Below, in pieces: positions 468 to 63,580 of a stretch of 64,000 nucleotides of DNA. Under the pieces are notes generated by a model. That model saw only the letters and a list, made by a program, of their open reading frames with translations, ran no database searches and had not been told where the DNA came from. The position numbers and the translations under genes are program-made. The first letter of the stretch is position 1; every line of letters starts with the position of its first letter. This DNA is from a virus. The DNA lies in the IMG/VR virus record IMGVR_UViG_3300037427_002598, positions 1 to 64,000 of that record. The stretch is one strand, 5' to 3'.

Positions 468-502
468 TATATTATCTGCGAATTTCGTATTTAGTTTGTA
501 TT
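468..502 (-). promoter_or_regulatory. Repeated promoter-like element, copy 1 (primase-helicase)
   Basis: On the minus strand AATACAAACTAAATACG (502-486) is followed after 7 nt by CAGATAATATA (478-468). The upstream box is identical to copy 4; the spacer is one base shorter than the usual 8. The -10-like box ends 3 nt before the ATG at 464, so a start 6-7 nt downstream would give a leaderless or nearly leaderless mRNA. The element overlaps the stop codon of the SSB-like gene. Confidence 0.6.
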
Positions 503-812
503 AAAATGGTAAGTCGTCCTCTTTTACTGGTTCAGCTTTAGGCGTAGTTTTTGGTTGATCCATTCTAGCTGGAGCTTCTACGTTTTGACCGTTTGTCCAA
601 ACAACCCTAGCGTTACCTAAATAAACTTTAGCAACTTTAGCTTCTCGTTCTTCTTTAGTTTGTTCAACTATTACAGGGCCATTATTACCAAACTGATCTA
701 CTTCATCGTTTAAAGTGATACTAATAGGTAAATACTTACCTTTAGCACCTACAATGATTTTGTCTTTTGGGATACTGTTTAGATTAATACTTGTTTTTAA
801 TATTGATGCCAT
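501..812 (-). CDS. Single-stranded DNA-binding protein-like
   Basis: The 103-aa protein ends in an acidic tail, KEDDLPF, like the C-terminal peptide by which bacterial SSBs recruit partners. The body has a strand-rich section (GKYLPISITLND) and a linker rich in Pro and Lys before the tail. It is shorter than a typical SSB, about half an OB fold plus tail, so the fold is inferred. The neighbouring exonuclease, ERF annealase and primase support a role coating ssDNA in replication and recombination. Its ATG overlaps the TAA of the upstream 69-aa gene (TAATG), suggesting coupled translation. Confidence 0.65.
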   Translation of the reverse strand: MASILKTSINLNSIPKDKIIVGAKGKYLPISITLNDEVDQFGNNGPVIVEQTKEEREAKVAKVYLGNARVVWTNGQNVEAPARMDQPKTTPKAEPVKEDDLPF

Positions 813-1021
813 TATGCTAATGTTGTGTTTAAGTTGTTAAACATATCACGTAAATCCATAGTGGTTACGTTAGTGTCTTTTAATCTACGTCTAAAGTTAT
901 CGGCTACTTTAGAATAAGGATGATATCCATCCACTGTATTTGTATTTCTATAAAATTGTGATACAGGAAATCTTAATCCTGTTATTGTACAGATTTTTGT
1001 ACGTCTATTTATTCTTGCCAT
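812..1021 (-). CDS. Hypothetical basic 69-aa protein
   Basis: No family is recognised. The protein is basic (MARINRRTK start; FRRRLKDTN centre) and may bind nucleic acid, but no motif shows this. It sits 1 nt downstream of the exonuclease gene and shares a TAATG overlap with the SSB-like gene, so it is co-transcribed with the recombination set. Confidence 0.7.
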   Translation of the reverse strand: MARINRRTKICTITGLRFPVSQFYRNTNTVDGYHPYSKVADNFRRRLKDTNVTTMDLRDMFNNLNTTLA

Positions 1022-1022
1022 A

Positions 1023-1754
1023 TTATAAAATTTCAGTTTTAAAAAATTGTTTAGGATCGAATTCTGGTGATTTAAAAAATAATTTGTATTGAGCTACAGC
1101 TTCTTTTACTTTCTCACGACCCTTATCATAAAAAGCATCAGAACACTCACAAATTTTAATTTGACGAGTAGATTTATCTATAGCTATAAAAATCATATCA
1201 TATCCAAATAGTTTTTTATAAATAAAAGCTTGGCTATCATAATTATAGCGAGAAGCTGAATATCTAAAATTTTCTATATCTGATGTGGTTTTTAAATCTA
1301 CAACTAATCTTTCGTCATGATTTACTATATCTGCTTTACCTTTCCATAGTTCACTTTCTATTTCGGAAATTCCAGGAACTTCATATTCTACATTTTTACT
1401 TTGAATTAGATCCTTACAAACGTTATTAGCTAATACTGTATCAACCATTAACTCTATTTGATCTACTTCGTGTTGTAATAAACAAAGTTCTCCTTCAGAT
1501 ATCTCTTTATACACTTTATTGTTCCTAGTATTAGACTTAACAATTTTAAACTTTTTTAGTTTATCTGGTTCAAGAATAGCAGTATGAAAATAACCGCCAA
1601 TTAAAAACGCAGGTGATTGTTTACTAGGCTCATGTAATGATAAAGGGTTTTTTAATAAGGTTGCGATGTGAGAATTACTAAGATATTGTTGTCCAAACTC
1701 ACCATAGTAATCCTCATCATTTTTTAACCTTTTTAAAATCTCTTTTTTTGTCAT
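1023..1754 (-). CDS. PD-(D/E)XK exonuclease (RecE/Cas4-like)
   Basis: The 243-aa protein has the layout of phage exodeoxyribonuclease VIII-like PD-(D/E)XK nucleases: an N-terminal GGYFHTAILEP segment (about residues 53-63) with the family's GxxxH, then GKADIV with D142, then VVDLKTT with D153 and K155 as the metal and catalytic residues, and YDSQAFIY as the following Q motif. By family it would resect duplex ends to leave ssDNA for the annealase. It starts on the base next to the end of the ERF gene. Exonuclease plus ERF plus SSB is a standard phage single-strand-annealing recombination module. Confidence 0.82.
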   Translation of the reverse strand: MTKKEILKRLKNDEDYYGEFGQQYLSNSHIATLLKNPLSLHEPSKQSPAFLIGGYFHTAILEPDKLKKFKIVKSNTRNNKVYKEISEGELCLLQHEVDQIELMVDTVLANNVCKDLIQSKNVEYEVPGISEIESELWKGKADIVNHDERLVVDLKTTSDIENFRYSASRYNYDSQAFIYKKLFGYDMIFIAIDKSTRQIKICECSDAFYDKGREKVKEAVAQYKLFFKSPEFDPKQFFKTEIL

Positions 1755-2270
1755 TTAAAGCGTTGTTAATTCCTTTTCAATTTCTTTAGTTAAAGAGTAT
1801 TTTGCTTTAATTGCATCTATTTTTCCTCCTGATTTTATAAACTGTTTAGCTTTTGTTACTTGATCTTGACTCATATTGGTCTTGTGATCGTTAACAGCAT
1901 CACTGTCTTGTGTATCATCAATTAAAAATAAATTACCTAAAGCATATTTCTTCCCATAACTCGATGCAGAACCAAATTGTTGAGGTGTTTGCATACCTTT
2001 CTGTAATAAGTCTACTCCTACTAAAGCTGTTGCTTGTATAGAGTTTTCTCCATCAGAAATAGTTGCCATACTCTCAATAATAGGCATAGGGTCACTAGCA
2101 ATTAAATTTTCATTTAAAGTTACTGAAACTCCTAATTCTAATAAAAAGGGTTTTGTTGCTTCGAGGATATCTTCGGCAGAGCGGAAGTAATATTTGCCGA
2201 ATGAGTTAAATCTACTTTTCTTCGATTTAAACTTGGTCTGAATAGTTGCTAACTTTTCGTTTATGTTCAT
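1755..2270 (-). CDS. erf: ERF-family single-strand annealing protein
   Basis: The 171-aa protein matches the ERF superfamily. It opens with NINEKLATIQTKFKSKKS, has FGKYYFRSAEDILEATKPFL in the core, and carries the characteristic QQFGSASSYGKKYALG followed by LFLIDDTQDSDA. ERF proteins form rings that anneal complementary ssDNA during phage recombination and genome circularisation. It lies immediately upstream of the exonuclease on the same strand. The upstream gap holds AT-rich sequence with a GGTAGTAAATATAG element. Confidence 0.87.
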   Translation of the reverse strand: MNINEKLATIQTKFKSKKSRFNSFGKYYFRSAEDILEATKPFLLELGVSVTLNENLIASDPMPIIESMATISDGENSIQATALVGVDLLQKGMQTPQQFGSASSYGKKYALGNLFLIDDTQDSDAVNDHKTNMSQDQVTKAKQFIKSGGKIDAIKAKYSLTKEIEKELTTL

Positions 2271-2310
2271 AGGTATTTGGGTTTTATCTATTAATATAAT
2301 TACATATAAT

Positions 2311-2330
2311 TTACTATATTTACTACCTGT
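2311..2330 (-). promoter_or_regulatory. Second-class promoter-like element upstream of erf
   Basis: On the minus strand ACAGGTAGTAAATATAGTAA lies between the sigma-factor gene and erf. It resembles AATAGGTAGTAATATATAAT upstream of the HTH gene (3730-3711) and differs from the seven-copy element. Two copies are weak evidence; it may mark a different expression class. Confidence 0.3.
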
Positions 2331-2333
2331 AAC

Positions 2334-3086
2334 TTACAGATAATCAATAACTTGCGAGTGATCTACGTTATCAACAAGTTTTTTTACAGCTTGCTTTTTT
2401 AGTTCTGAAACTCGCACATAACCACTTGGTCCTTTTATGTTAATTGAAGCGGCTATATTTTTAGCTGAATGTTTATCACAATCTAATCCATAAGATAATC
2501 TTAATACCTCATATTCTGTTTCGTTTAAATATTTACTCATTAAACTTTTTAAATAACTATTTAAAATCCCTATATTATAAGGTTCTGAATCATCTGGTAT
2601 TTGATATATTAAATCTTCATCGTTAGTATGTAATTTTGCATCTATACTCAAGAAAATACTATTGAAAAACATTTCAACCATTTTTTTGTCTTTAGGATTT
2701 TTTCTTATTTCATTCATTTTATGTTCAGGTATCCTAATATCACCTCTATTTTTATCTATTGCTCTTCTTATTGCTCCTTTAATTCTTTTAAAAAAGAAAG
2801 ACTTAAGAGTTTTTTCCTTATCGTTAGATTGATTTAAAAGTGTATAATCTAATTTTGCTACAGCTTTAGTTAAACCAAGACTACCTTCTTGAATAAAATC
2901 AGTTATATCCATAACACCTGATGCTTGTTGAGAAGTAGAAAATTTACGAGCTACATTTTCAACTAAAGGAAGAAATTTACAAATAAGTTCTTCAGCGCTG
3001 TAATCTATTAAGTTTCTATGTACCGGTTGAGATGCTTTTACATCTTCTTTATATCTAACGTAGTTACTTATATTATATTTTTTCAT
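2334..3086 (-). CDS. RNA polymerase sigma-70 family factor
   Basis: The 250-aa protein shows sigma-70 region 2: LVENVARKFS (about 41-50), then DITDFIQEGSLGLTKAVAKLD, where the DxIQEGxxGL core is diagnostic, and FFKRIKGAIRRAID (RNAP and -10 contacts). The C-terminal part, LNETEYEVLRLSYGLD followed by SAKNIAASI and VRVSELKKQAVKKL, is a region 4 helix-turn-helix for a -35 element. No anti-sigma gene is visible. It would bind host core RNA polymerase and redirect it to phage promoters, the obvious candidates being the repeated elements here. Its 5' end overlaps the upstream HTH gene by 14 nt, so the two are probably made together. Confidence 0.9.
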   Translation of the reverse strand: MKKYNISNYVRYKEDVKASQPVHRNLIDYSAEELICKFLPLVENVARKFSTSQQASGVMDITDFIQEGSLGLTKAVAKLDYTLLNQSNDKEKTLKSFFFKRIKGAIRRAIDKNRGDIRIPEHKMNEIRKNPKDKKMVEMFFNSIFLSIDAKLHTNDEDLIYQIPDDSEPYNIGILNSYLKSLMSKYLNETEYEVLRLSYGLDCDKHSAKNIAASINIKGPSGYVRVSELKKQAVKKLVDNVDHSQVIDYL

Positions 3087-3696
3087 ATATTTTATTTAAT
3101 TTGTCTTTTTCTTCTTTTAGTTGTTTCCCTATAGTTCTATGAATTGTCCTAGTAGAACAATCAAGCATATCTGCTATACCTTTAATTGTAATCTTATCAC
3201 CTATATCATTTATATCTAGCATACACCTATAGATATCTTCTTTATGTATGTTTTTATTTCTTCCAACCAATTGTCCTACTATTTTAAGTTTAGCTGTAGT
3301 ACTTAAATTAGTTATTTGATTAAATATAATCTTTCTTTTTCTATTAACAGGGGGTTTTTTTAAAGCTTTATCCAATCCACCTAACATATCTTTTAAATAT
3401 TTCTCTTTTATATTAAAAGTTATAAAATTGTTAGATTTATCTGTTATAAAATAAGCAATTTCTTTAAATTTATCATCTTCTAAATCAGGGTTCAAGTATT
3501 TAAGGACTAACAAATGCCACTTTAATGATTTAAAACTACTTATTTTAGCTTTACTTTTAAATAGCTCGTAGCATTCATAAGTCCCATATTGATAATACTT
3601 TCCCCATTGATATACTTTTGTTGGTATATCATTTATTGGATCTCTATTATATATGATTCTATTTCGATTTAAATAATCGATCCGTCTATGTGACAT
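3073..3696 (-). CDS. HTH DNA-binding protein
   Basis: The 207-aa protein has no recognised N-terminal family. Residues about 165-195 (DKITIKGIADMLDCSTRTIHRTI) form a clear helix-turn-helix of the kind found in transcriptional regulators and replication initiators. The whole protein is Lys-rich. It overlaps the sigma-factor start by 14 nt, so a regulator plus sigma factor pair is likely. It could be a co-regulator, a repressor or an origin-binding protein; the sequence does not decide. Confidence 0.72.
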   Translation of the reverse strand: MSHRRIDYLNRNRIIYNRDPINDIPTKVYQWGKYYQYGTYECYELFKSKAKISSFKSLKWHLLVLKYLNPDLEDDKFKEIAYFITDKSNNFITFNIKEKYLKDMLGGLDKALKKPPVNRKRKIIFNQITNLSTTAKLKIVGQLVGRNKNIHKEDIYRCMLDINDIGDKITIKGIADMLDCSTRTIHRTIGKQLKEEKDKLNKIYEKI

Positions 3697-3710
3697 TAGC
3701 GTGTTATTCT

Positions 3711-3730
3711 ATTATATATTACTACCTATT
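3711..3730 (-). promoter_or_regulatory. Second-class promoter-like element upstream of the HTH gene
   Basis: On the minus strand AATAGGTAGTAATATATAAT stands 14 nt before the ATG at 3696. The GGTAGTAA core is shared with the element upstream of erf. The TATAAT-like end supports a promoter, but only two copies were seen. Confidence 0.3.
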
Positions 3731-3734
3731 GTCA

Positions 3735-3956
3735 TTATCTCAGCGTGGGCTGAGTTTCAAATTTTCTTAATTTATCTGAATACTTAATTATTAATTCAGC
3801 TTTATGATTTAAGGTTTTTAGGTTTATTTTATTATCTTTAGCCTTACAGCTTAAAACATAATTTGTTATATCTGTTCTTAAATCATATATAGAATCCCAT
3901 AAATAATTTTTATGAGACTTTTTTCTTGCTTTTGGTAAATTTTTTATTCCGAACAT
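3735..3956 (-). CDS. Hypothetical 73-aa protein
   Basis: A Lys-rich, mostly helical small protein with no recognised family. Its last codons include a perfect inverted repeat, CTCAGC-GTGG-GCTGAG (3739-3754), so the mRNA would form a hairpin directly at the stop codon. A T-run is lacking. Confidence 0.6.
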   Translation of the reverse strand: MFGIKNLPKARKKSHKNYLWDSIYDLRTDITNYVLSCKAKDNKINLKTLNHKAELIIKYSDKLRKFETQPTLR

Positions 3957-4035
3957 CTTTTTTAGTTTTACGTTTAGCGTTAATATCGAAAGCGTTAACT
4001 CGAATTAAGTGTTTATATAATTTTATTTGTTTCAT
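3910..4035 (-). CDS. Possible 41-aa basic peptide
   Basis: An ATG at 4035 opens 41 codons (MKQIKLYKHLIRVNAFDINA...) ending in TAA at 3910. It overlaps the 5' end of the 73-aa gene by 47 nt in another frame. It fills the gap between the 73-aa and 57-aa genes and has a similar A-rich leader, but the overlap and size leave it doubtful. Confidence 0.35.
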   Translation of the reverse strand: MKQIKLYKHLIRVNAFDINAKRKTKKDVRNKKFTKSKKKVS

Positions 4036-4051
4036 TTAATATAATTTATTG

Positions 4052-4077
4052 TGACATTATGTCATGACACTTTGTCA
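4052..4077. promoter_or_regulatory. Tandem TGACA palindromes (possible operator)
   Basis: Two abutting 13-bp palindromes, TGACATTATGTCA (4052-4064) and TGACACTTTGTCA (4065-4077), lie over the end of the 57-aa gene and just upstream of the next start at 4035. TGACA half-sites recur in the 9.2-9.7 kb intergenic region. A dimeric DNA-binding protein, for example the HTH protein, could use them; this is inference. Confidence 0.4.
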
Positions 4078-4235
4078 TCTTTTATAATTGTTATTCCCTT
4101 TTTGCCGAATACATTTCTATAAGCAAATTTATATCCATCTTCTAGTTCATATTTAATATTTTGAGCTGGAGGCATGTTTGCACTCCCACCCATATATTTA
4201 GTTATTAAATATTTTTCAATTTTATTTTTATTCAT
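4062..4235 (-). CDS. Hypothetical 57-aa protein
   Basis: An ATG at 4235 opens 57 codons (MNKNKIEKYLITKYMGGSAN...) ending in TGA at 4062. The start overlaps the end of the upstream membrane-protein gene by 8 nt, the tight packing seen throughout this strand. No family is recognised. Confidence 0.55.
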   Translation of the reverse strand: MNKNKIEKYLITKYMGGSANMPPAQNIKYELEDGYKFAYRNVFGKKGITIIKDDKVS

Positions 4236-4494
4236 CGCTTAAATATTTTTGATATAATATAAATGTAATTATTTTTAATATTGTTCCAAGCATTATACCC
4301 ATCATCATTTGTATTCTTGTTGTACCAATAGCATAAAACATATATATTATAAAACCATCAAATAATAACATACATGTTACAGGTATAATGATTACTTTTT
4401 TTATCCAGTCTCCTACTAAAGCTACCATATAACCGCTTAAAGCCATAATAAGAGACATAAAGAAGGGTATTATTAAATCTAATAAACTACTCAT
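4228..4494 (-). CDS. Small membrane protein with three helices
   Basis: The 88-aa protein is dominated by hydrophobic segments at about residues 3-26, 34-56 and 62-82, separated by short charged turns (GDWIKKV), which suggests three transmembrane helices. No family is recognised. Its start overlaps the ligase stop by 8 nt. It could be involved in host takeover or exclusion, but nothing shows this. Confidence 0.68.
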   Translation of the reverse strand: MSSLLDLIIPFFMSLIMALSGYMVALVGDWIKKVIIIPVTCMLLFDGFIIYMFYAIGTTRIQMMMGIMLGTILKIITFILYQKYLSDE

Positions 4495-5320
4495 AATTTC
4501 TTATACATTTAAATAGAGGATGTCTATATGATCCAGAGGGAGTCTTTTGAAAGTATGTAAAGGTAGCGGTTTTACCAATATACCAGTCTGCTATATCATA
4601 CATTTTTTCCATTATTTTATAATCATCCATAATAGGCATACCAAAAGTGATACCGTTGTTATCAACAGCCAAGAATTTACCAATCGTACCAGTTCGTTTG
4701 CCTTGGCCTTCCACCCATGCTGTAATTCTTGCCTCTGAATCTTGGAAATCTTTGAATTTTTGTAAGTTGTAACTTCGTTTTTGTTCATATGGTTTATTTA
4801 GTCTTACTATACTACCTTCATAACCTTGTGTAAGAAAATCTTCGTGCCATATTTTAGCTTCTTCAATTAAAGAAACTTGGTGAGTCAATACTTCAACAAT
4901 ATGTCTTGATCTTAATTCATCAATTTTACTTTTAATATTTTCATTTCTTATTTTAAAAGGATAATTATGAATATCAGAATAATAATCATACCAATGAAAC
5001 TGAATATAACGAGTTGCCTCATCTATTTCTTCAGCATTGGGCTTTTGTTTTCTCACAAGGGATATAATTTTATTGAAATTATCTTTAAATTGGTGATTAT
5101 ATAATTCACCATCAACCACAAGATGTGGGTTGGTTTTAAATAAAGGTTTAAACGCATCTTTAATATGATCTACAGTTTTAAACTCTTTATGATTACGGCT
5201 AAAAGCACCGTCTTTTGTTATATAGCATCTAACCCCATCAAGTTTTGGTTGAATAAAAGAATCTACATTAAATTCTTTTTTTCCATAAGGGTGAGCTAGC
5301 ATTACTTTAAAATCACTCAT
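4487..5320 (-). CDS. ATP-dependent DNA ligase
   Basis: The 277-aa protein contains the nucleotidyltransferase motifs of ATP-dependent ligases. Motif I is KLDGVR (residues 26-31, with K26 as the lysine that takes AMP). LVVDGELYN follows as motif III, GYEGSIVRL as motif IV, and LQKFKDF as motif V. An OB-like part, RTGTIGKFLAV to the C-terminus, follows. It is a minimal ligase without an N-terminal DNA-binding domain, as in many phages. It would seal nicks during replication and recombination. It is coupled by an ATGA overlap to the upstream UVR-motif gene. Confidence 0.92.
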   Translation of the reverse strand: MSDFKVMLAHPYGKKEFNVDSFIQPKLDGVRCYITKDGAFSRNHKEFKTVDHIKDAFKPLFKTNPHLVVDGELYNHQFKDNFNKIISLVRKQKPNAEEIDEATRYIQFHWYDYYSDIHNYPFKIRNENIKSKIDELRSRHIVEVLTHQVSLIEEAKIWHEDFLTQGYEGSIVRLNKPYEQKRSYNLQKFKDFQDSEARITAWVEGQGKRTGTIGKFLAVDNNGITFGMPIMDDYKIMEKMYDIADWYIGKTATFTYFQKTPSGSYRHPLFKCIRNYE

Positions 5321-5562
5321 TTTTTGTATTTTTTATTAATTATTTCTATTTTTCTTTTAATAATAGCGGCTTTTTCATATTCTTCTTTGTCTTCATAACG
5401 TGACAAAAGACCATTAAGCCGTTTTAATTCAATATCTATAACTTCATCTTCAGTCGGTCTGTATACTTCTAGAGTATCATGATTATCATAATATTCAGTA
5501 AAAGCTTTTAATACTCTATTAGCTATTTTATCTGCTAATCTATCTAATTCTCTTTCGTTCAT
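5317..5562 (-). CDS. Small protein with UVR-like C-terminal motif
   Basis: The C-terminal half of this 81-aa protein (ELKRLNGLLSRYEDKEEYEKAAIIKRKI) resembles the UVR/UvrB-UvrC interaction helix pair, with the EEYEKAAxIKRKI signature. The N-terminal half is acidic and helical. It may be a small adaptor that binds a partner through the UVR coiled coil. It overlaps the ligase start (ATGA) and has copy 2 of the repeated promoter directly upstream, so it begins a ligase operon. Confidence 0.68.
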   Translation of the reverse strand: MNERELDRLADKIANRVLKAFTEYYDNHDTLEVYRPTEDEVIDIELKRLNGLLSRYEDKEEYEKAAIIKRKIEIINKKYKK

Positions 5563-5567
5563 ACATA

Positions 5568-5603
5568 TATATTATCTATATTAAACCGTATTTAGTTTAT
5601 GAT
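5568..5603 (-). promoter_or_regulatory. Repeated promoter-like element, copy 2 (UVR-like/ligase operon)
   Basis: On the minus strand CATAAACTAAATACG (5601-5587), an 8-nt spacer, then TAGATAATATA (5578-5568), 5 nt before the ATG at 5562. It overlaps the end of the 154-aa gene. Confidence 0.62.
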
Positions 5604-6045
5604 CTTTTATTTCATACTTTTTAATCAATTGCTCAGCTGTACCTACAAACATGACATGCTTTTGCCATACATTATAGATAGATATATAAGTTGGTTCACC
5701 TTGTTTAGGATATAAAGTATAGATATATTCTTCTCCATAATCTCCAAGATCACCATTACATTCATAAAGATAAGTATATCCTACATCTTTTTTAAATTCC
5801 TGCACTATCTGAGCTGCAAAACAACCCGGACCATTAGCATATTCACCTATTTTAACTGAACCTGAAATACCATTTATTATTTTAATTGGTTTTATAAATT
5901 CAGCTAATTTAACACCTACATAAGATGGATAACCATCATATTGTTGGTACATATTTATGATTGACTTCTTGATCATCTCATGACCTTTGTCATAAGCAAC
6001 ACCTTCTTGTCTTGGTATTACTCTTGTTAAACTTCTAGTTCCCAT
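5581..6045 (-). CDS. Conserved phage protein with MGTRSLT start
   Basis: This 154-aa protein begins MGTRSLTRV and contains MYQQYDGYPSYVGVKLAEF followed by ANGPGCFAAQIV. It belongs to a protein type I know as common and functionally undefined in phages (the 'YxQxDGYPxxxG' proteins). No catalytic motif is apparent. It lies between the tRNA gene and the ligase operon. Confidence 0.72.
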   Translation of the reverse strand: MGTRSLTRVIPRQEGVAYDKGHEMIKKSIINMYQQYDGYPSYVGVKLAEFIKPIKIINGISGSVKIGEYANGPGCFAAQIVQEFKKDVGYTYLYECNGDLGDYGEEYIYTLYPKQGEPTYISIYNVWQKHVMFVGTAEQLIKKYEIKDHKLNTV

Positions 6046-6063
6046 TTTATTATTTAAAGTTAG

Positions 6064-6136
6064 TTGCGAGGGGAGGATTCGAACCTCCGACCTTTGGGTT
6101 ATGAGCCCAACGAGCTGGCCACTGCTCTACCTCGCT
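6064..6136 (-). tRNA. tRNA-Met (CAT), initiator-like
   Basis: A full cloverleaf: acceptor AGCGAGG/CCTCGCA, D-arm GAGC/GCTC, anticodon arm TTGGG-CTCATAA-CCCAA, T-arm GGAGG-TTCGAAT-CCTCC. The CAT anticodon is central. Position 1:72 is an A:A mismatch, the anticodon stem ends in three G:C pairs, and the D-stem has A11:T24; all three are hallmarks of bacterial initiator tRNA. CCA is not encoded (ACTA follows). A phage initiator tRNA could support translation initiation late in infection, but an elongator or lysidine-modified Ile role cannot be excluded without testing. Confidence 0.93.
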
Positions 6137-6141
6137 ATAAG

Positions 6142-6206
6142 TAGGAAGTTGGAGAAAACTTGGCAAATCTTTTTATATTCTCTTTTTACGCCAGACATCC
6201 TTCCTA
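6142..6206 (-). other. Structured element upstream of tRNA-Met
   Basis: TAGGAAG (6142-6148) and CTTCCTA (6200-6206) form a 7-bp inverted repeat around about 50 nt, which holds a second short repeat (TTGGC/GCCAG). The spacing recalls an acceptor stem, but there is no T-loop, so it is not a tRNA. It may be a processing structure for the tRNA transcript or a decayed tRNA. Confidence 0.3.
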
Positions 6207-6392
6207 TATATTTTCTGTGAGTCTATATATCTCACTTAATTTTTCTTCAGAATATTTAATTATTTTAGTTCCAACTCTTTCTCTATAATCTGAATCTTCT
6301 TCATGTTTTAATAAATATTCTAATTTTATTAAATCACCTTTTAAAATTCCTATCATATCTTGAATGTAAATCTTTGTGTTTTTTTTATTCAT
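6204..6392 (-). CDS. Hypothetical 62-aa protein
   Basis: A charged, helical small protein (MNKKNTKIYIQDMIGIL...) with no recognised family. Copy 3 of the repeated promoter ends 1 nt before its ATG, so its mRNA may be leaderless. It is followed by the structured element and tRNA-Met, so this promoter probably also serves the tRNA. Confidence 0.62.
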   Translation of the reverse strand: MNKKNTKIYIQDMIGILKGDLIKLEYLLKHEEDSDYRERVGTKIIKYSEEKLSEIYRLTENI

Positions 6393-6393
6393 T

Positions 6394-6429
6394 TATATTA
6401 TCTTTATCAGCCCGTATTTACTCTGTATC
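6394..6429 (-). promoter_or_regulatory. Repeated promoter-like element, copy 3
   Basis: On the minus strand GATACAGAGTAAATACG (6429-6413), an 8-nt spacer, AAGATAATATA (6404-6394). The ATG at 6392 is 1 nt away. It overlaps the end of the 87-aa gene. Confidence 0.6.
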
Positions 6430-6681
6430 TAATTCAACCAGTTTAGCAATATAATTCCAAGTATCAATTTGATTAATAGTTGCATTGATACATTTTTCTA
6501 ATACTTCTGATGATACATTTCTTTTATTATCAGGATCAATTATAGCATTTTTAAGAGTTTCTAATTCTTCATTTAAACTAAATAATTTAGCAAATGCTTT
6601 ATCAGAGGCTCTTTGGTTTAATGTTTCTGTATTTAGCTTAGGCATATCATCCAGCTTATTTTTTAGTTGTTTTAAATTCAT
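6418..6681 (-). CDS. Hypothetical 87-aa helical protein
   Basis: A mostly alpha-helical, charged protein with heptad-like Leu spacing (LFSLNEELETLKNAII). No family is recognised. It ends 1 nt from the start region of the promoter element that serves the next gene. Confidence 0.62.
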   Translation of the reverse strand: MNLKQLKNKLDDMPKLNTETLNQRASDKAFAKLFSLNEELETLKNAIIDPDNKRNVSSEVLEKCINATINQIDTWNYIAKLVELDTE

Positions 6682-6682
6682 A

Positions 6683-6895
6683 TTATATTTTTATCCAAGT
6701 TAAACCATTATAATTCAACCATTTACTTACTCCATATATTTTAGTTTTTTCATATTCTTCTTTTTCTTCATTCCATTTCATATCTTCTTTAAACAGAAAA
6801 GAGAAAGTAGGAGGTAAATCGCCTAATACATATCCTCTATAATACTTTTTATTTATAGATATTGTATTTTTATTAATTTTTTTTATTATGTTCAT
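6683..6895 (-). CDS. Hypothetical 70-aa protein
   Basis: A Lys/Tyr-rich small protein (MNIIKKINKNTISINKKYYRG...) with no recognised family. It lies 1 nt upstream of the 87-aa gene and has an A/T-rich leader. Confidence 0.55.
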   Translation of the reverse strand: MNIIKKINKNTISINKKYYRGYVLGDLPPTFSFLFKEDMKWNEEKEEYEKTKIYGVSKWLNYNGLTWIKI

Positions 6896-6904
6896 ATTAT
6901 AATT

Positions 6905-7126
6905 TTAAAATTCAAATCCACTTGCATTCATTGCACTTCCAAACGTTTCGGGATTAGTAATAGCAGTAGCAAATACTACAATTATTCCAAAAATAGCAGT
7001 AATAGCTAATAGTCCAATCCAAGAATATACTAGTATTTCACTAATAGTTAAACCTTTTACAAAGTTATATTTTTTATTAACGTGAAATCCAATTCTAAAT
7101 TTATCTTTTGTTGTTGTTATTCTCAT
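6905..7126 (-). CDS. Small membrane protein, one helix
   Basis: 73 aa with one strong hydrophobic segment at about residues 29-53 (ILVYSWIGLLAITAIFGIIV...), after a basic N-terminus. Probably a single-pass inner-membrane protein. Its ATG overlaps the TGA of the upstream 71-aa gene (ATGA), so the two are co-translated. Confidence 0.62.
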   Translation of the reverse strand: MRITTTKDKFRIGFHVNKKYNFVKGLTISEILVYSWIGLLAITAIFGIIVVFATAITNPETFGSAMNASGFEF

Positions 7127-7338
7127 AATTTATTATATTTTATATTTAAAAAGTCTGTTATTGTTTTCATGATATCTTCTTTTTTATCTAATACCACTAA
7201 TTTTCCTTCAATATTCACATTCTCATCACTTTTATGATTCATATGAATTTCATATCTTTGATTATCTGCCCAGATATTTTCATCTGAGAGATTTATTATT
7301 TTAATAGTAATTTCATTGTTGGTTTTAAAATTTTCCAT
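7123..7338 (-). CDS. Hypothetical 71-aa protein
   Basis: Residues 8-57 look beta-rich (ITIKIINLSD; YEIHMNHKSD; VNIEGKLVVLD), followed by a helix. No family is recognised. It is coupled at both ends, TAATG with the upstream gene and ATGA with the downstream gene. Confidence 0.58.
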   Translation of the reverse strand: MENFKTNNEITIKIINLSDENIWADNQRYEIHMNHKSDENVNIEGKLVVLDKKEDIMKTITDFLNIKYNKL

Positions 7339-7547
7339 TATATAAATCTATTATATTTTAGCATATCAGCAACAGATCTATTAAATTCATTACATCTTTT
7401 TCTATAATTCTTATCCGTGAGCCATTTCACCCACCCATTTGTTCTAGTGCAAGTTCCAAATCTTTTTTGATGAGATAAAACCCTGTTAAGTTGTTCTTGC
7501 ATTGATTCGATGCTTTTATTTGTATGTTTATTATTAGTTATTGTCAT
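7338..7547 (-). CDS. Hypothetical 69-aa protein
   Basis: A basic small protein (QLNRVLSHQKRFGTCTRTNG, later KNYRKRCNEFNR). No family is recognised. It is the first gene after promoter copy 4 and starts a chain of overlapping genes (7547 to 6905). Confidence 0.6.
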   Translation of the reverse strand: MTITNNKHTNKSIESMQEQLNRVLSHQKRFGTCTRTNGWVKWLTDKNYRKRCNEFNRSVADMLKYNRFI

Positions 7548-7559
7548 ATTCTTATTTAT

Positions 7560-7595
7560 TATATTATCTATTTTTATTCGTATTTAGTTTGTATT
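7560..7595 (-). promoter_or_regulatory. Repeated promoter-like element, copy 4
   Basis: The clearest copy: AATACAAACTAAATACG (7595-7579), 8-nt spacer AATAAAAA, TAGATAATATA (7570-7560), then a 12-nt A/T leader to the ATG at 7547. It overlaps the stop of the 27-aa membrane peptide. Confidence 0.68.
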
Positions 7596-7677
7596 ATTCT
7601 TCTCCACTTTGAAAAAGTTTATAAATTATAGCCATAAACAAAGCTACTAATAATAAAGTAATTATTGCTCCTTCCAT
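7594..7677 (-). CDS. 27-aa transmembrane peptide
   Basis: ATG at 7677: MEGAIITLLLVALFMAIIYK then a polar tail ending FQSGEE. A single hydrophobic helix fills most of it. The start directly abuts the stop of the upstream 39-aa gene and is preceded by an A-rich stretch. Small membrane peptides of this type are common in phages; function unknown. Confidence 0.5.
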   Translation of the reverse strand: MEGAIITLLLVALFMAIIYKLFQSGEE

Positions 7678-7797
7678 TTATGTAATTTTATTATATTTAT
7701 TCCAATATTCTCTTTCAAATGCTTCAAATTCAGCACGAGAAAATTTAAACAATGTTATTCTTTTCGTTTTAGTCTTTTTTCTGTTGTATTCTTTCAT
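7678..7797 (-). CDS. 39-aa basic peptide
   Basis: ATG at 7797: MKEYNRKKTKTKRITLFKFS, then an acidic helix with AEFEAFEREYW. It overlaps the end of the 111-aa gene by 29 nt and abuts the 27-aa gene. No family is recognised. Confidence 0.45.
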   Translation of the reverse strand: MKEYNRKKTKTKRITLFKFSRAEFEAFEREYWNKYNKIT

Positions 7798-8104
7798 AAA
7801 TTTCTTCAGTTAAATTCACATTATTAAAAATGAGGTTATAAATAGCTGAATAAGCACATTGACTCCAATTATTATAAGGATAAAAGTCTTTTGTATCATC
7901 AAATATATCAAAATCTAATTTATCTACTATTTCTTTAGCTTGTTGGGTATAAATTACCAAATTGTCTATTAATTCTGTAGTAAATTGGTATAATTCTTCT
8001 TCATCTGGAGTTAAATTATCCATATAGATATATTCTTCTGCTACTTCATCTAATAAATCATTTAAAAGTGTTTTTTCTTCGTAATTTAAATCTGTATCTA
8101 TCAT
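7769..8104 (-). CDS. Hypothetical acidic 111-aa protein
   Basis: A strongly acidic protein with a helical first half (NDLLDEVAEEYIYMDNL) and an aromatic stretch, DFYPYNNWSQCAY, in the centre. No family is recognised. The high acidity and small size are compatible with a DNA-mimic or host-inhibitor role, but that is only a possibility. ATGA overlap with the upstream 56-aa gene. Confidence 0.62.
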   Translation of the reverse strand: MIDTDLNYEEKTLLNDLLDEVAEEYIYMDNLTPDEEELYQFTTELIDNLVIYTQQAKEIVDKLDFDIFDDTKDFYPYNNWSQCAYSAIYNLIFNNVNLTEEIYERIQQKKD

Positions 8105-8271
8105 AATTCTATTTCTTTTACTAATTTCTCAATTGATTCTACTTGTAATTTCAAAGGATTATCATCTGAACAAAATCCACTAATCATAGTCTTTAAGACA
8201 TGCAATTTTCCTTCGATTTTTCCAAGTGTTCTACCATTTTTAAAATCCCATTTTGTGTTTTCTATTGTCAT
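8101..8271 (-). CDS. Hypothetical 56-aa protein
   Basis: ATG at 8271: MTIENTKWDFKNGRTLGKIE, then KLHVLKTMISGFCSDDNPLK. It ends in an ATGA overlap with the 111-aa gene and follows the 27-aa gene by one base. No family is recognised. Confidence 0.55.
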   Translation of the reverse strand: MTIENTKWDFKNGRTLGKIEGKLHVLKTMISGFCSDDNPLKLQVESIEKLVKEIEL

Positions 8272-8272
8272 T

Positions 8273-8356
8273 TTATTTATTTTTATATATTGTTTCGTTT
8301 AATAGTTTGTCAATTATTATTTCTTGATCAAATTCTTTTTCATCATAATACATCAT
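8273..8356 (-). CDS. 27-aa peptide
   Basis: ATG at 8356 (a second ATG follows at once): MMYYDEKEFDQEIIIDKLLN... ending TAA at 8273. It fits the tight packing between the tRNA-like minihelix and the 56-aa gene. Size makes it uncertain. Confidence 0.4.
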   Translation of the reverse strand: MMYYDEKEFDQEIIIDKLLNETIYKNK

Positions 8357-8378
8357 ATTATTTTATTTTATTGTTTAG

Positions 8379-8419
8379 TTGAGTAGTGAGAATCGAACTC
8401 ACATAAACCATTTACTCAA
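8379..8419 (-). other. Orphan tRNA acceptor/T-arm minihelix
   Basis: On the minus strand TTGAGTA, 10 nt, GTGAG-TTCGATT-CTCAC, TACTCAA. The 7-bp acceptor stem and 5-bp T-stem are perfect and the loop TTCGATT has tRNA T-loop consensus. D- and anticodon arms are absent: only 10 nt separate acceptor and T-arm. The trailing ACTA matches that after the phage tRNA-Met. It may be a deletion remnant of a tRNA, a functional tRNA-like minihelix, or a fragment matching a host tRNA 3' end as in an attachment site. Promoter copy 5 lies just upstream. Confidence 0.55.
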
Positions 8420-8472
8420 TCATTCGTTAATATTTTTCAGAAGGCAACGAGTTTTATAAAACTTCTTTCAAT

Positions 8473-8508
8473 TATATTATCTATTTACTTTCGTATTCAC
8501 TTCGTGAT
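8473..8508 (-). promoter_or_regulatory. Repeated promoter-like element, copy 5
   Basis: On the minus strand TATCACGAAGTGAATACG (ending at 8492), 8-nt spacer, TAGATAATATA (8483-8473). It lies inside the 3' end of the 72-aa gene and upstream of the tRNA-like minihelix and the genes from 8356 leftward. Confidence 0.58.
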
Positions 8509-8695
8509 ATAATTCTTCTAATACTCTTGTTTTTATATATTGTACTAATTCACAATATTCATCATTTTCTTTATCTTTAGAAAATTCTCCGTCAATTACC
8601 CACTCAATTGATTTTAATAAATCGTCATCAGTTTGTATTTTAACTCTATCAATCATTTCTCTTAATTCACTTGTTTTACTCATTTTCATATTCAT
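8477..8695 (-). CDS. Hypothetical 72-aa protein
   Basis: A charged helical protein (SELREMIDRVKIQTDDDLLKSI) with no recognised family. Three nearby ATGs (residues 1, 3 and 5) could serve as start. It overlaps the upstream 52-aa gene by 20 nt. Confidence 0.58.
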   Translation of the reverse strand: MNMKMSKTSELREMIDRVKIQTDDDLLKSIEWVIDGEFSKDKENDEYCELVQYIKTRVLEELYHEVNTKVNR

Positions 8696-8834
8696 TTATT
8701 AATCTTAATCTTATTTTTTGGGAAGTTTCTTCAGTAAATAATTCACTGTCATATCTATTTCTATATTCTTCAATTAAATCTTGTCTAGATATAATCTTAT
8801 TGAAATCTACTATTTTTCCATTTCTAATTTTCAT
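8676..8834 (-). CDS. Hypothetical 52-aa protein
   Basis: ATG at 8834: MKIRNGKIVDFNKIISRQDL, ending YENE. A charged helical peptide with no recognised family, overlapping the 72-aa gene by 20 nt and following the 46-aa gene by 3 nt. Confidence 0.5.
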   Translation of the reverse strand: MKIRNGKIVDFNKIISRQDLIEEYRNRYDSELFTEETSQKIRLRLINEYENE

Positions 8835-8837
8835 TTA

Positions 8838-8978
8838 TTATTGTAGTTTATTATTAGTTTTTAATATTGAATCAATTTCTTTTTTATTTAAATTTAATTC
8901 TTTTTCATTTTCAAGATAGAAAAAGAAAGATTTAGTTATATTATTGTAGTCAGTTTGAGTTAATTTAATTGATTTCAT
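8838..8978 (-). CDS. Hypothetical 46-aa protein
   Basis: The start is set at the ATG at 8978 (MKSIKLTQTDYNNITKSFFF) because promoter copy 6 lies immediately upstream; the open frame extends to 9023 but that would run through the promoter. Lys/Asn-rich, no recognised family. Confidence 0.5.
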   Translation of the reverse strand: MKSIKLTQTDYNNITKSFFFYLENEKELNLNKKEIDSILKTNNKLQ

Positions 8979-8993
8979 ATTATTATTATTTAT

Positions 8994-9029
8994 TATATTA
9001 TCTATTAGACATCGTATTAACATTGTATT
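8994..9029 (-). promoter_or_regulatory. Repeated promoter-like element, copy 6
   Basis: On the minus strand AATACAATGTTAATACG (9029-9013), 8-nt spacer, TAGATAATATA (9004-8994), then 15 nt of A/T leader to the ATG at 8978. It overlaps the stop of the next 46-aa gene. Confidence 0.62.
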
Positions 9030-9168
9030 ATACTATTGAATAATAAATTTCATCTAGATTATAATATTCTTTTATATTATTTTCTATCTCTTTTTTATTA
9101 TTAATATTAGTTAAATACATCTCGTCAATGTAATTATTATTGTCGTTATTGTAAATATATATAGTCAT
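9028..9168 (-). CDS. 46-aa acidic peptide, first gene of the leftward unit
   Basis: ATG at 9168: MTIYIYNNDNNNYIDEMYLT..., rich in Asn, Tyr and Glu, ending TAA at 9028. It follows promoter copy 7 with a 14-nt A/T leader, the same layout as copies 4 and 6. No family is recognised. Confidence 0.5.
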   Translation of the reverse strand: MTIYIYNNDNNNYIDEMYLTNINNKKEIENNIKEYYNLDEIYYSIV

Positions 9169-9182
9169 ATTTTATTGTTTAT

Positions 9183-9218
9183 TATATTATCTAATACACA
9201 TCGTATTAAGATTGTATA
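9183..9218 (-). promoter_or_regulatory. Repeated promoter-like element, copy 7 (outermost)
   Basis: On the minus strand TATACAATCTTAATACG (9218-9202), 8-nt spacer, TAGATAATATA (9193-9183). It would be the first promoter of the leftward unit. Confidence 0.62.
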
Positions 9219-9318: not shown

Positions 9319-9523
9319 AATGAATTATAAATATAAATTATAATATAAGATAAAGAATTAGTTTTAGTTATATAGTCTAAACATTTTCATACATGTACAG
9401 AAAAAGCCGAAAACTTTTCATAAAATTATGACAAAAAGGGGTCCGTGGGCCTAAATGAAAACCATTTTGGTAACTGGTTGATAATCAGGAGGATAGGTGA
9501 AATACAAAACCCCAATATATCTT

Positions 9524-9556
9524 ACAAACTAAATACGAGGTAAATAGTGACAATAG
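9524..9556 (+). promoter_or_regulatory. Plus-strand copy of the upstream promoter box
   Basis: ACAAACTAAATACG (9524-9537) is identical to the upstream box of copies 1 and 4 but points rightward. The downstream part (TAGTGACAATA) only weakly matches TAGATAATATA and the spacer is 7 nt. It may be a weaker or differently regulated promoter of the late unit, 120 nt before its first gene. Confidence 0.4.
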
Positions 9557-9675
9557 CTAATAAAGATAGGTTAAGTAGTACCCTAATGTCACACTTATGT
9601 AAATATACTGATTTATGCGTAAAAAATGACAATTTCGTGTGAATATAGTAAGTATACACTTTAAATATAACAAAC

Positions 9676-10056
9676 ATGAAAGAACAACCACCTTTTTATA
9701 AGACTGGAACATCTCGTTCTCCTTTTAATAAACATGAACCAGGACATGAAGAACTACCTAAGCATCATGTAAAAGAAATGCAAAAGAATAAAAAATTTGT
9801 TCCAATTATAAATACTCCAGACCCTACAATATTAAATAAACATAAAGTAGATAAGACTAGAGCTTTAATGAAAAGCTTTTCAGGAGGAAAATATCAGGCA
9901 ACGAGATTGGATATTCATAGAGATGCACCAAAACCACGTGGTGTAATTAAACCTAAAATTACAGCTTCCACAGAAATAAAACCATTACAATACAAGAGAG
10001 AAGGAGCTTTGAGAACAAGTAAGCATGTTAGCTTGAGCTCTACAAAAAAATCATAA
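9676..10056 (+). CDS. Basic His/Pro-rich protein with SPF motif, first late gene
   Basis: A 126-aa low-complexity basic protein with two SPF-like segments (QPPFYKT at 4-10; RSPFNKH at 14-20) followed by HEPGHEELPKHH. It has no hydrophobic core and is probably disordered. The RSPFNK segment matches the short motif shared by several small late proteins further on. It is the first gene after the control region and precedes the fibre cluster. Confidence 0.65.
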   Translation: MKEQPPFYKTGTSRSPFNKHEPGHEELPKHHVKEMQKNKKFVPIINTPDPTILNKHKVDKTRALMKSFSGGKYQATRLDIHRDAPKPRGVIKPKITASTEIKPLQYKREGALRTSKHVSLSSTKKS

Positions 10057-23666: not shown

Positions 23667-25217
23667 ATGTCAGACTTAATAGTCAAAAATCTTAATTTTG
23701 GGCAAGAAGCCCAAAGTCAAGTATTTAAAGGAATCGATAAACTCACACAAGCTGTTAGCTCTACTTTAGGGGCTAGTGGCAAGTGTGTTTTACTAGAAGA
23801 TGATAAAGGAACTCCTGTTATTACTAAAGATGGTGTTACTGTTGCTAATTCAATTGTTTTATTAGATCCTGTAGAAAATATGGGGGCTACTCTTTTAAAA
23901 GAAGCAGCAAGAAAAACAGTTTCCGAAGCAGGTGATGGCACTACAACAGCAACAATACTTGCTCATGCTATATTAGAAGAAGCTAAAGATATTAATATTA
24001 ATTCAAGAGAATTAAAAGAAGGTATTCAAAGTGCTGTTAAAAAAGTAATTAAATATTTAGAAAAAATAGCTATTCCAGTAAAAGGAGATATGATTGATCA
24101 AATAGCTACAATTTCAACTAATAATGATGCTAAGCTAGGAAAAATTATCGGGGATGCATTTAGATCTGTTGGTGAAACAGGCGTAGTAATGATGGAACAT
24201 TCTTCCTTACCGGAAACAGAAGTTGAATTAGTTGACGGTGTACAATATGAAAAAGGATTGACAAATCCGCATTTTATTACTAATAAAGCAAAAAAGACCG
24301 CAGAACTAGAAAACCCCGCAGTATTACTTATAGAATCTCCAGTAGAAAATATAAGACAAATTCAATCAGTATTAGAGTATGTTATAAAGAATAATACACC
24401 TTTACTTATAATAGCAGATGTAGAAGCTCCTGTTATGGCTACACTTGCTATGAACAAAACAAAGGGTAATATAAAAATAAATATTATAAATGCCCCTACA
24501 TTTGGAGTTAACAAAAGAGAAACTTTAGATGATTTAGCAATGCTTACCGGGGCTACTGTCATAAATGAAGATCTTGGTGATGATATGGATTTAATACAAC
24601 CTGAATTATTAGGTAGTTGTTTAAAATCTATAACTGATGAAAAAGATACGATTTTACAAGTTGAAGAGCAGAGTGAAACGGTTTTAAATACAATAGAAAC
24701 TGTTAAAGAAGAATTAGCCAATAAACCTAATCCAGCTCATTTAATAAGACTTGAGAAAAGATTAGCTAGATTATCAGCAAAAATTGCAATAGTAAAAGTT
24801 GGGGCAAATTCTGATATAGAACTAAAAGAAAAATCGGATAGAATAGAAGATGCTATTTGTGCGACAAAAGCCGCTATAAAAGAAGGAATTGTTCCAGGAG
24901 GTGGAATAGCGTTATTAAACGCGGCAACTAATATAAAAGAAAATAATAAAGCAGAAGAAGTATTAACAAAAGCAATTTTATCACCGTTTACAACTATTTT
25001 AGATAATGCGGGTATTAAAGTTAAACTTCCTACTGAAACAGGAATTGGGATAAATGTAGTAAGCGGTAAAGAAGTAAATATGCAAAAGGCTGGTATTATT
25101 GATCCATTACTGGTTACTAAAAGTGCCCTTATAAACGCCGCTTCAGTAGCTACTACAATATTGTCGACAGATTGTGTAATCAATAATTTAAGAATTGATG
25201 AAAGCAATAGGAAATAA
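23667..25217 (+). CDS. groEL: GroEL-like chaperonin
   Basis: A 516-aa chaperonin with the family's nucleotide-site motifs: TKDGVTVAN (about 53-61), GDGTTTATIL with the catalytic Asp at about 90, and GIVPGGG at about 410, preceded by IEDAICATKAAIKEG, which holds the second essential Asp. The apical region is divergent. It is shorter than E. coli GroEL (548 aa) and lacks the Gly-Gly-Met C-terminal tail. It would fold phage proteins, most plausibly capsid or fibre proteins, in a large ring with the adjacent GroES. groES overlaps its 3' end by 20 nt. Confidence 0.93.
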   Translation: MSDLIVKNLNFGQEAQSQVFKGIDKLTQAVSSTLGASGKCVLLEDDKGTPVITKDGVTVANSIVLLDPVENMGATLLKEAARKTVSEAGDGTTTATILAHAILEEAKDININSRELKEGIQSAVKKVIKYLEKIAIPVKGDMIDQIATISTNNDAKLGKIIGDAFRSVGETGVVMMEHSSLPETEVELVDGVQYEKGLTNPHFITNKAKKTAELENPAVLLIESPVENIRQIQSVLEYVIKNNTPLLIIADVEAPVMATLAMNKTKGNIKINIINAPTFGVNKRETLDDLAMLTGATVINEDLGDDMDLIQPELLGSCLKSITDEKDTILQVEEQSETVLNTIETVKEELANKPNPAHLIRLEKRLARLSAKIAIVKVGANSDIELKEKSDRIEDAICATKAAIKEGIVPGGGIALLNAATNIKENNKAEEVLTKAILSPFTTILDNAGIKVKLPTETGIGINVVSGKEVNMQKAGIIDPLLVTKSALINAASVATTILSTDCVINNLRIDESNRK

Positions 25218-61831: not shown

Positions 61832-63580
61832 TTATCCATCGCAACTTAAGCAATCCGGGTCCATTGCGTTCGCTGCTATATCTCCCCGTAATACAGACTC
61901 AGTCCGCATATAATATAAAGTTTTAATCCCTCTTTTCCAAGCTTCAATATGTACTTGATTAATCCATCTAGGTATTGCTTCAGAGGGAAAAGCTAAATTT
62001 AAACTTACTGATTGATCTATATAATCAGTTCTAATTCCTGCTTGGTTTATTAATTCTAATTGATTTATTTCTTTAAATGTTTTAAATACATTTTTAATAG
62101 GTTCATGATCTTGCGATTCTTGGGTTACTCTTCCTAAATGATCATAATAATATCCTTCTAGTTCTTTTAAATCTTGAACCGATCCTTCATCTTTTAAAAT
62201 TTTATCCCATATATCTTTATTATCTAATTTAAGTTTTCTTAAAATTTTTTGCAATTCTTTATTTTTTCTAATAAAAGTTCCTTTAGCTGATTGATCTGTA
62301 AAAACATTTGCTGCCCAAGGTTCAATTCCAGGTGATACATTTCCAGCTAATTTGCTATTTGATACGGTGGGTGCTATCGCTCTTAAATGTGTATTTCGCA
62401 TTCCAGTACCTACACACCATAAAGGTTCACCATATGTCTCCGCAAGAGCTCTAGAGGCTCTTTCTGTCTCTATTTTAATCTTAGAAAATATTTCTCTTGT
62501 TTTAAATTGTGCCAATAGCCCTTCAAAAGCAATTCCATTTTTTTGTAACAAACTATGCCATCCTAAGACTCCTAATCCTAGTGCTCTTCCTTTTACTGCA
62601 GATCTTACAGAATTATCAAATCCTTTCATATTTTTAGCCCGTTGTATAAACTCTTCTAATACACCATCTAAAAACCATGTTGCATCATAAATTAAATTAG
62701 AATTTTTCCATTCATCATATTTATCTAAATTAACTGAAGATAAACAACATACAAAGCTATGAGACTCATCTGTATGTAATACTATTTCACTACAGATATT
62801 TGTCATATAAACTTTTAAGCTGTTCGACTTATAAGCATCTGGGTTAGCTTTGTTTGTATTTCCTTTAAAGAGAATATACGGCTCTCCAGTAGCTTTACGT
62901 TTTTGGAGGAGTTTTCCCCATCTTTGTCTAGCTTCTGGATCTCCAGCTTCGAGTTTTCGCATAAACTTATCACCAACGACAGCACACTGATGTAGGTTAA
63001 GAGATTGCCTATTGACGTCCCCTTTAGGTTCTCTAATTTCCAGCCAGTCATAGAAATCAGGGTGTTCGATATTAATATTAACGGATGCAGCCCCTCTACG
63101 TACTGATCCTTGATTGGTTGCGAGTATAGTCGAGTCATAGACTTTGCAAAAAGGGACAACTCCATCTGATGTTCCATTACCTGTTATTTTAGCGCCGGCA
63201 GGACGAATCATATTAACTCCGATACCTACTCCCCCGCCGTGTTTAGCAAGTAACATCATTTCTAAATTTTTATTTCCTATATCCATTATACTATCGGCTA
63301 CATCTATACCAAAACAACTTATAGGTAATCCTCTATCAGTGCCGGTATTGGATAAAACAGGGGATGCTAAGCATAGCCATCCTTTCCAAATATAATCAAA
63401 AAATTTATTTGCCAATTCTGGTTTAAATAATCTTTTAGCAACAGTTTTAGATACTCTTTTATAAGCTTCCTTAGGGGTTTCACCATTAAATAAATAGCCA
63501 CCACTAATAGTTTTTTTATAAACATCAGTATCTCCCCAAGAAGGGTAATCTTTACCTTTTATCCAATCATTATTCCACAT
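61832..63580 (-). CDS. nrdA: Class I ribonucleotide reductase large subunit
   Basis: 582 aa. LASPVLSNTG (71-80), GLPISCFG with C89, NICSEI (261-266; N, C and E of the radical site), FVCCLSSVNL with the partner Cys near 279, LYYMRTES with two Tyr (556-557) for radical transfer and the ending CLSCDG with redox Cys. These give a class I reductase, which needs NrdB; NrdB is not in the window. It lacks the N-terminal ATP cone of E. coli NrdA (761 aa), so dATP feedback is probably absent. It makes dNTPs for phage DNA. TAATG overlap with the upstream gene. Confidence 0.9.
   Translation of the reverse strand: MWNNDWIKGKDYPSWGDTDVYKKTISGGYLFNGETPKEAYKRVSKTVAKRLFKPELANKFFDYIWKGWLCLASPVLSNTGTDRGLPISCFGIDVADSIMDIGNKNLEMMLLAKHGGGVGIGVNMIRPAGAKITGNGTSDGVVPFCKVYDSTILATNQGSVRRGAASVNINIEHPDFYDWLEIREPKGDVNRQSLNLHQCAVVGDKFMRKLEAGDPEARQRWGKLLQKRKATGEPYILFKGNTNKANPDAYKSNSLKVYMTNICSEIVLHTDESHSFVCCLSSVNLDKYDEWKNSNLIYDATWFLDGVLEEFIQRAKNMKGFDNSVRSAVKGRALGLGVLGWHSLLQKNGIAFEGLLAQFKTREIFSKIKIETERASRALAETYGEPLWCVGTGMRNTHLRAIAPTVSNSKLAGNVSPGIEPWAANVFTDQSAKGTFIRKNKELQKILRKLKLDNKDIWDKILKDEGSVQDLKELEGYYYDHLGRVTQESQDHEPIKNVFKTFKEINQLELINQAGIRTDYIDQSVSLNLAFPSEAIPRWINQVHIEAWKRGIKTLYYMRTESVLRGDIAANAMDPDCLSCDG

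Follow-up and report, generated by a model that had tools for sequence, protein, structure and literature searches.

Promoter takeover by phage sigma factors is already known, with phiEco32 and 7-11, SPO1 and T4 as examples. The middle promoters of T4 combine a -10 element with a MotA box, which is read by an activator. The sigma factor of phiEco32, gp36, lacks region 4 and goes with a single element, tAATGTAtA, at middle and late promoters; Salmonella phage 7-11 has eight late promoters with the consensus GTAAtg-(16)-aCTA and encodes the sigma factor SaPh711_gp47 (PMC8948821). For flavobacteria, the reported sigma motifs comprise TAnnTTTG variants, TAnnTTGY and other alternative-sigma motifs (PMC9723704).

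The subject here is a repeated element of an uncultured marine phage with relatives among the phages of Bacteroidota. The window, meaning the whole stretch of 64,000 nucleotides under analysis, covers positions 1 to 64,000 of the 69,119-base IMG/VR record IMGVR_UViG_3300037427_002598. As in 7-11, the genome is of the podovirus type with two opposed blocks, a sigma70-family phage sigma factor retains region 4, a two-part promoter class stands at many genes, and the sigma gene is buried in the block that it would help transcribe. The promoter classes themselves differ, since the late GTAAtg-(16)-aCTA of 7-11 has its counterpart here in ACAAAC-TAAATACG-N8-GATAAT, found in the leftward block. SaPh711_gp47 gave no match to the sigma factor of the window (tblastn, E<=1e-3). 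With phiEco32 the locus would share a phage sigma factor that guides the host core enzyme to a phage promoter class, with starts 6-8 bp downstream of the element; the presence of region 4 and a long upstream box set it apart. Like T4 middle promoters, the element joins a conserved box near -30 to a sigma70-like -10 at fixed spacing, but the sole candidate activator is dispensable in three loci. It resembles the promoters of the Bacteroidota primary sigma factor in presumed host group, AT-richness and short leaders and departs from them in sequence, box positions and, presumably, reader (PMC6847099, PMC9723704).

Relative to the phage sigma promoters compared, what appears to be new is the unusually long and rigid upstream part. 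The promoter code of Bacteroidota is unusual, and the elements look like a private promoter set that bypasses it. A single sigma family, with about 500 candidate targets spread over 70 loci and natural variation on both sides, makes two things testable: the recognition of such an upstream part by a sigma factor, and phage takeover of a Bacteroidota polymerase. For many uncultured marine phages it also predicts transcription starts and start codons. Our literature search yielded no report of a phage sigma regulon in such phages, and none of a phage sigma factor with this host range or motif.

Results

The original prediction described seven minus-strand copies of a promoter-like element with near-fixed geometry. 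Reading each copy again in the sequence confirmed all seven positions and the strand (Table 1), and a pattern with a fixed spacer recovers six of them at 0-1 mismatch, the exception being copy 1 with its spacer of 7. When up to 3 mismatches are allowed, TAATACG-N9-AGATAATATA has 7 matches in the window, namely six true copies (0-1 mismatch) and one plus-strand site (3 mismatches, 40782); copy 1 is missed because of its shorter spacer. Chance would give 1.2 matches, and none of 100 shuffles reaches 7. Over the 69,119-base record, a limit of 2 mismatches leaves 6 matches, all on the minus strand, and the reversed control pattern has none at that limit. Five orthologous sites all have a spacer of 8 nt, and copy 1 falls short of these by one A. 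The distance from this primase copy to the ATG is identical in four of the five relatives shown, and the fifth differs within an AT run.

Table 1. Copies of the element and neighboring features in the window
Feature	Position	Strand	Remarks
Copy 1, spacer 7	468..502	-	Predicted +1 464, the A of the primase/helicase ATG (leaderless)
Phage sigma factor, 250 aa	2334..3086	-	Sigma70 family, regions 2 and 4, short region 3
HTH protein, 207 aa	3073..3696	-	Upstream neighbor of sigma; weak HTH matches
Copy 2	5568..5603	-	Predicted +1 5564, ATG 5562
Copy 3	6394..6429	-	Predicted +1 6390
Copy 4, best form	7560..7595	-	Predicted +1 7556, ATG 7547
Copy 5	8473..8508	-	Predicted +1 8469; tRNA-like stretch downstream
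Copy 6	8994..9029	-	Predicted +1 8990, likely ATG 8978
Copy 7	9183..9218	-	Heads leftward block; predicted +1 9179, ATG 9168
Late-facing upstream box, degenerate -10	9521..9557	+	Faces late genes

Copy 5, placed like the others upstream of a minus-strand gene in the original prediction, precedes a conserved non-coding stretch that resembles a tRNA rather than an obvious gene. At copy 3, the ATG of the ORF at 6204-6392 falls at -2 of the predicted start and so is probably not the start codon. The two ends of the record both carry primase/helicase matches; the leftward block therefore probably extends from 9218 past base 1, resuming at 69119 towards the ribonucleotide reductase genes. Structural genes run rightward from 9676. 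The phage also encodes GroEL and both ribonucleotide reductase subunits (window 23667-25217 and 61832-63580; small subunit, L007 4396-5364).

In an independent test, we fetched 38 IMG/VR loci through the sigma gene and added 31 further sigma-bearing loci, which gives 70 with the window. A first-pass matrix built from six window copies, before refinement, matched 207 sites in the window and the 38 loci, 202 of them on the sigma strand. The full set of 70 loci contains 499 unique sigma-strand matches with a near-constant spacer. Only six matches lie on the opposite strand: two are artefacts at N joins, and the other four (L032, L033, L037, L041) are arranged divergently from the first element, pointing at the late block. 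When the matrix is cut at -7, the counts are 424 unique sigma-strand matches against 5 opposite, at a threshold that admits about 5 sites per Mb when the sequence is shuffled, the shuffles being first-order Markov and thus a mild null.

We numbered the element from a conserved purine. On this scale ACAAAC occupies -36 to -31 and TAAATACG -30 to -23, followed by eight variable bases, TG or TA at -14/-13, then G-12 A-11 T-10 A-9 A-8 T-7 and an AT-rich run to -1. G-12, A-11, A-9 and T-7 are nearly invariant. In sigma70 -10 elements, the key positions are A-11 and T-7. The +1 position is a purine in 97% of sites even though it lies outside the matrix cut at -7, compared with 32% and 51% at the neighboring positions. 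An ATG that opens an ORF of at least 30 codons follows within 120 nt at 389 of the 424 sites (267-284 at random places). In 63 of the 424, the ATG sits exactly at +1; the primase copy is the instance in the window. Leaderless mRNAs make up 5.5% in F. psychrophilum (PMC9723704).

The fixed geometry, the strand bias, the hallmark sigma70 -10, the purine at a single position and the ORF starts just downstream lead us to regard the element as almost certainly a sigma70-type promoter, as far as sequence can tell, with the conserved purine as its probable transcription start. The -10, the purine and the ORF starts weigh against a repeated operator or replication site, as does the lack of a palindrome. 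Strand-biased repeats do occur in phages, and the early block of the relative MW202828 (L046 43742-49870, L047 1764) carries 12 exact copies of the palindrome GTGTCGTTAACGACAC; still, we consider such a site very improbable here.

A promoter for a single-subunit or virion phage RNA polymerase has its own attraction. The TAATACG core resembles the T7 promoter, and copies 6 and 7 contain TAATACGA, the first eight bases of that promoter. A virion polymerase, moreover, can be carried by crAss-like phages, and the window at 47446-48921 matches the muzzle protein of these phages, also in its C-terminal domain, which suggests a distant kinship to them. Against this, the scanned large proteins contain no polymerase family, and the conserved A-11 and T-7 with a purine seven nucleotides on form the pattern of a sigma -10. 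The DxDxD motif is absent from nine large ORFs and D[FYLIVM]D[ILVMG]D from every ORF above 100 codons. A search of the record for PF00940 gave no match, but neither did its control. We regard a phage polymerase as an exceedingly remote explanation.

The phage sigma factor was named in the original prediction as the obvious candidate reader. Its gene product matches PHROG 351 (1e-23), Pfam Sigma70_r2 above the cut-off, and SigA entries of the PDB both by sequence and by fold, which places it in the sigma70 family. The structure model is of moderate quality (pLDDT 73) and poor around residues 138-168. G104 and R107 are invariant and align with Q437 and T440 of sigma70.

The distribution of the element follows that of this gene. 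Among 39 long IMG/VR records chosen solely for the exact element, 33 carry the sigma gene, and the other six are apparently cut short. In these, the elements point into a contig end 0.2-1 kb past the last copy, and one record (G057) ends within the ligase gene; truncation is therefore the likely reason for the missing gene. Conversely, the element is absent from elemoA, Panino, phi38:1 and MW202828, four relatives found through their related terminase that have no detectable sigma factor. MW202828 is the closest named relative by terminase (62%). We also applied the check set in the original prediction, looking for relatives that keep the sigma factor and lack the element, and the result favored that prediction. 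All 58 non-redundant loci with enough sequence hold at least 4 copies, in a set that had been pre-filtered for at least 4 matches; a few short sigma-bearing loci (e.g., L017, L018, L021, L027, L035) have 0-3. Covariation between sigma and motif does not single out a contact, since the top sigma columns (129, 45, 228) are equalled by columns of control proteins, and a distance test of sigma against motif gave a weak signal. All co-occurring loci belong to a single phage clade, and part of the association could therefore arise from common descent alone.

Taken together, co-occurrence and the absence from four sigma-less relatives back the proposed reader by association, and we put the probability that the phage sigma factor with host core RNA polymerase reads the element at roughly three in four.

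Sigma homologues also turn up in bacterial MAG contigs, in bins of mixed phyla that include one Flavobacteriaceae bin; these are probably misbinned phage. One record (G032, that of L150) carries two sigma genes, one close to either end. In another (G042, that of L176), sigma, HTH and terminase genes are interrupted by many stops, perhaps a sign of unpolished assembly.

An alternative is that the elements are early promoters for the host primary sigma factor and that the phage sigma factor serves late genes. With six copies ahead of the sigma gene, transcription of the block has to be started by something else, and the conserved late-facing sequence near 9521 has a different -10. That sequence (window 9521-9680, plus strand, with counterparts at the equivalent position in L008 and L013) contains CTAAATACGAG...GTGACAATAGCTA and, after it, another conserved stretch that reaches the first late gene; it is possibly a late promoter or operator. 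The element, however, contains no match to TTTG/TAnnTTTG, and relatives without the sigma factor lack it. As had been claimed, it is neither the Bacteroidota promoter nor TTGACA/TATAAT: the consensus of about 500 sites has neither TAnnTTTG at -7 nor TTTG at -33, and TTTG/TAnnTTTG pairs that could serve the early block do not exceed chance in the record or along the sigma strand of sigma-bearing loci. One good host-type candidate occurs solely in L013 and L014, about 40 nt ahead of the first element. The four sigma-less relatives together have 27 host-type pairs compared with about 12 expected, a modest contrast that comes mainly from Panino and elemoA. Reading by the host sigma factor appears quite improbable.

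The length of the upstream box raises the question of a second protein. In a two-part arrangement like that of T4 middle promoters, a phage DNA-binding protein (the HTH protein or another) would take the -37 to -23 box and a phage or host sigma factor the -10. Upstream conservation does extend beyond the usual -35 hexamer, to -23, and the HTH gene adjoins sigma and is present at 55 of 58 loci. Where it is missing, in three loci, -36 to -31 is altered (TTCGAA in L039 and L256, TTGCAGAC in L045) and AATACG is retained. Yet these same three keep the element, as judged by a profile search of the stretches read, which rules out the HTH protein as a required reader. A MotA-type activator would be expected wherever the box occurs, and the HTH protein is not; another activator is possible. 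In L024 and L029, the HTH protein is retained, yet the box reads CACGGAC or similar and its TACG part is lost. HTH columns follow the motif no better than those of control proteins, and the protein has no PDB fold match at E<=0.001. A two-part reading of this kind is thus unlikely.

Discussion

In the most likely scheme, the phage sigma factor associates with host core RNA polymerase and would direct the holoenzyme to ACAAAC, TAAATACG and GATAAT (-12 to -7). Region 4 may read the -36 to -31 part, and the invariant R107, in the place of sigma70 T440, may read G-12. Transcription would most likely begin at the purine seven bases past T-7, often 0-12 nt before a start codon, and the copies would restart it along the leftward replication block. 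With its gene in its own block, the sigma factor would be subject to positive feedback. Since that gene stands behind six copies, it cannot be the sole source of its own first transcript, and another source has to supply the initial dose, be it weak host transcription, read-through or the virion. Phage 7-11 shares this start-up problem, for which its authors propose read-through from early promoters (PMC8948821).

One part of the element fits this scheme less easily. Canonical sigma contacts are not expected at TAAATACG, so a further factor may be involved. A sigma70-family holoenzyme might read the upstream region between about -37 and -23 as one continuous determinant, together with the -10, through a new contact or a partner. 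It would also be active as soon as infection begins, with sigma either delivered in the virion or made from a hidden host-read promoter. We hold this more elaborate version to be conceivable, if rather unlikely.

Two further features of the early block concern tRNA. The stretch after copy 5 contains no tRNA by ARAGORN and no Rfam match, but at 8381-8419 (minus strand) it can form a tRNA-like minihelix with a 7-bp acceptor-like stem and a 5-bp T-arm with a TTCGA-type loop, in which 9-15 nt replace the D and anticodon arms. The minihelix recurs at L203 3799, L020 2376, L218 6034, L024 4804, L032 4065 and L037 5281; in the last three, the stems differ yet pair, and the linker CTACGGTACTAAAGT is fixed. 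A tRNA-Met (CAT) gene lies at 6063-6136 on the minus strand, also within the early block.
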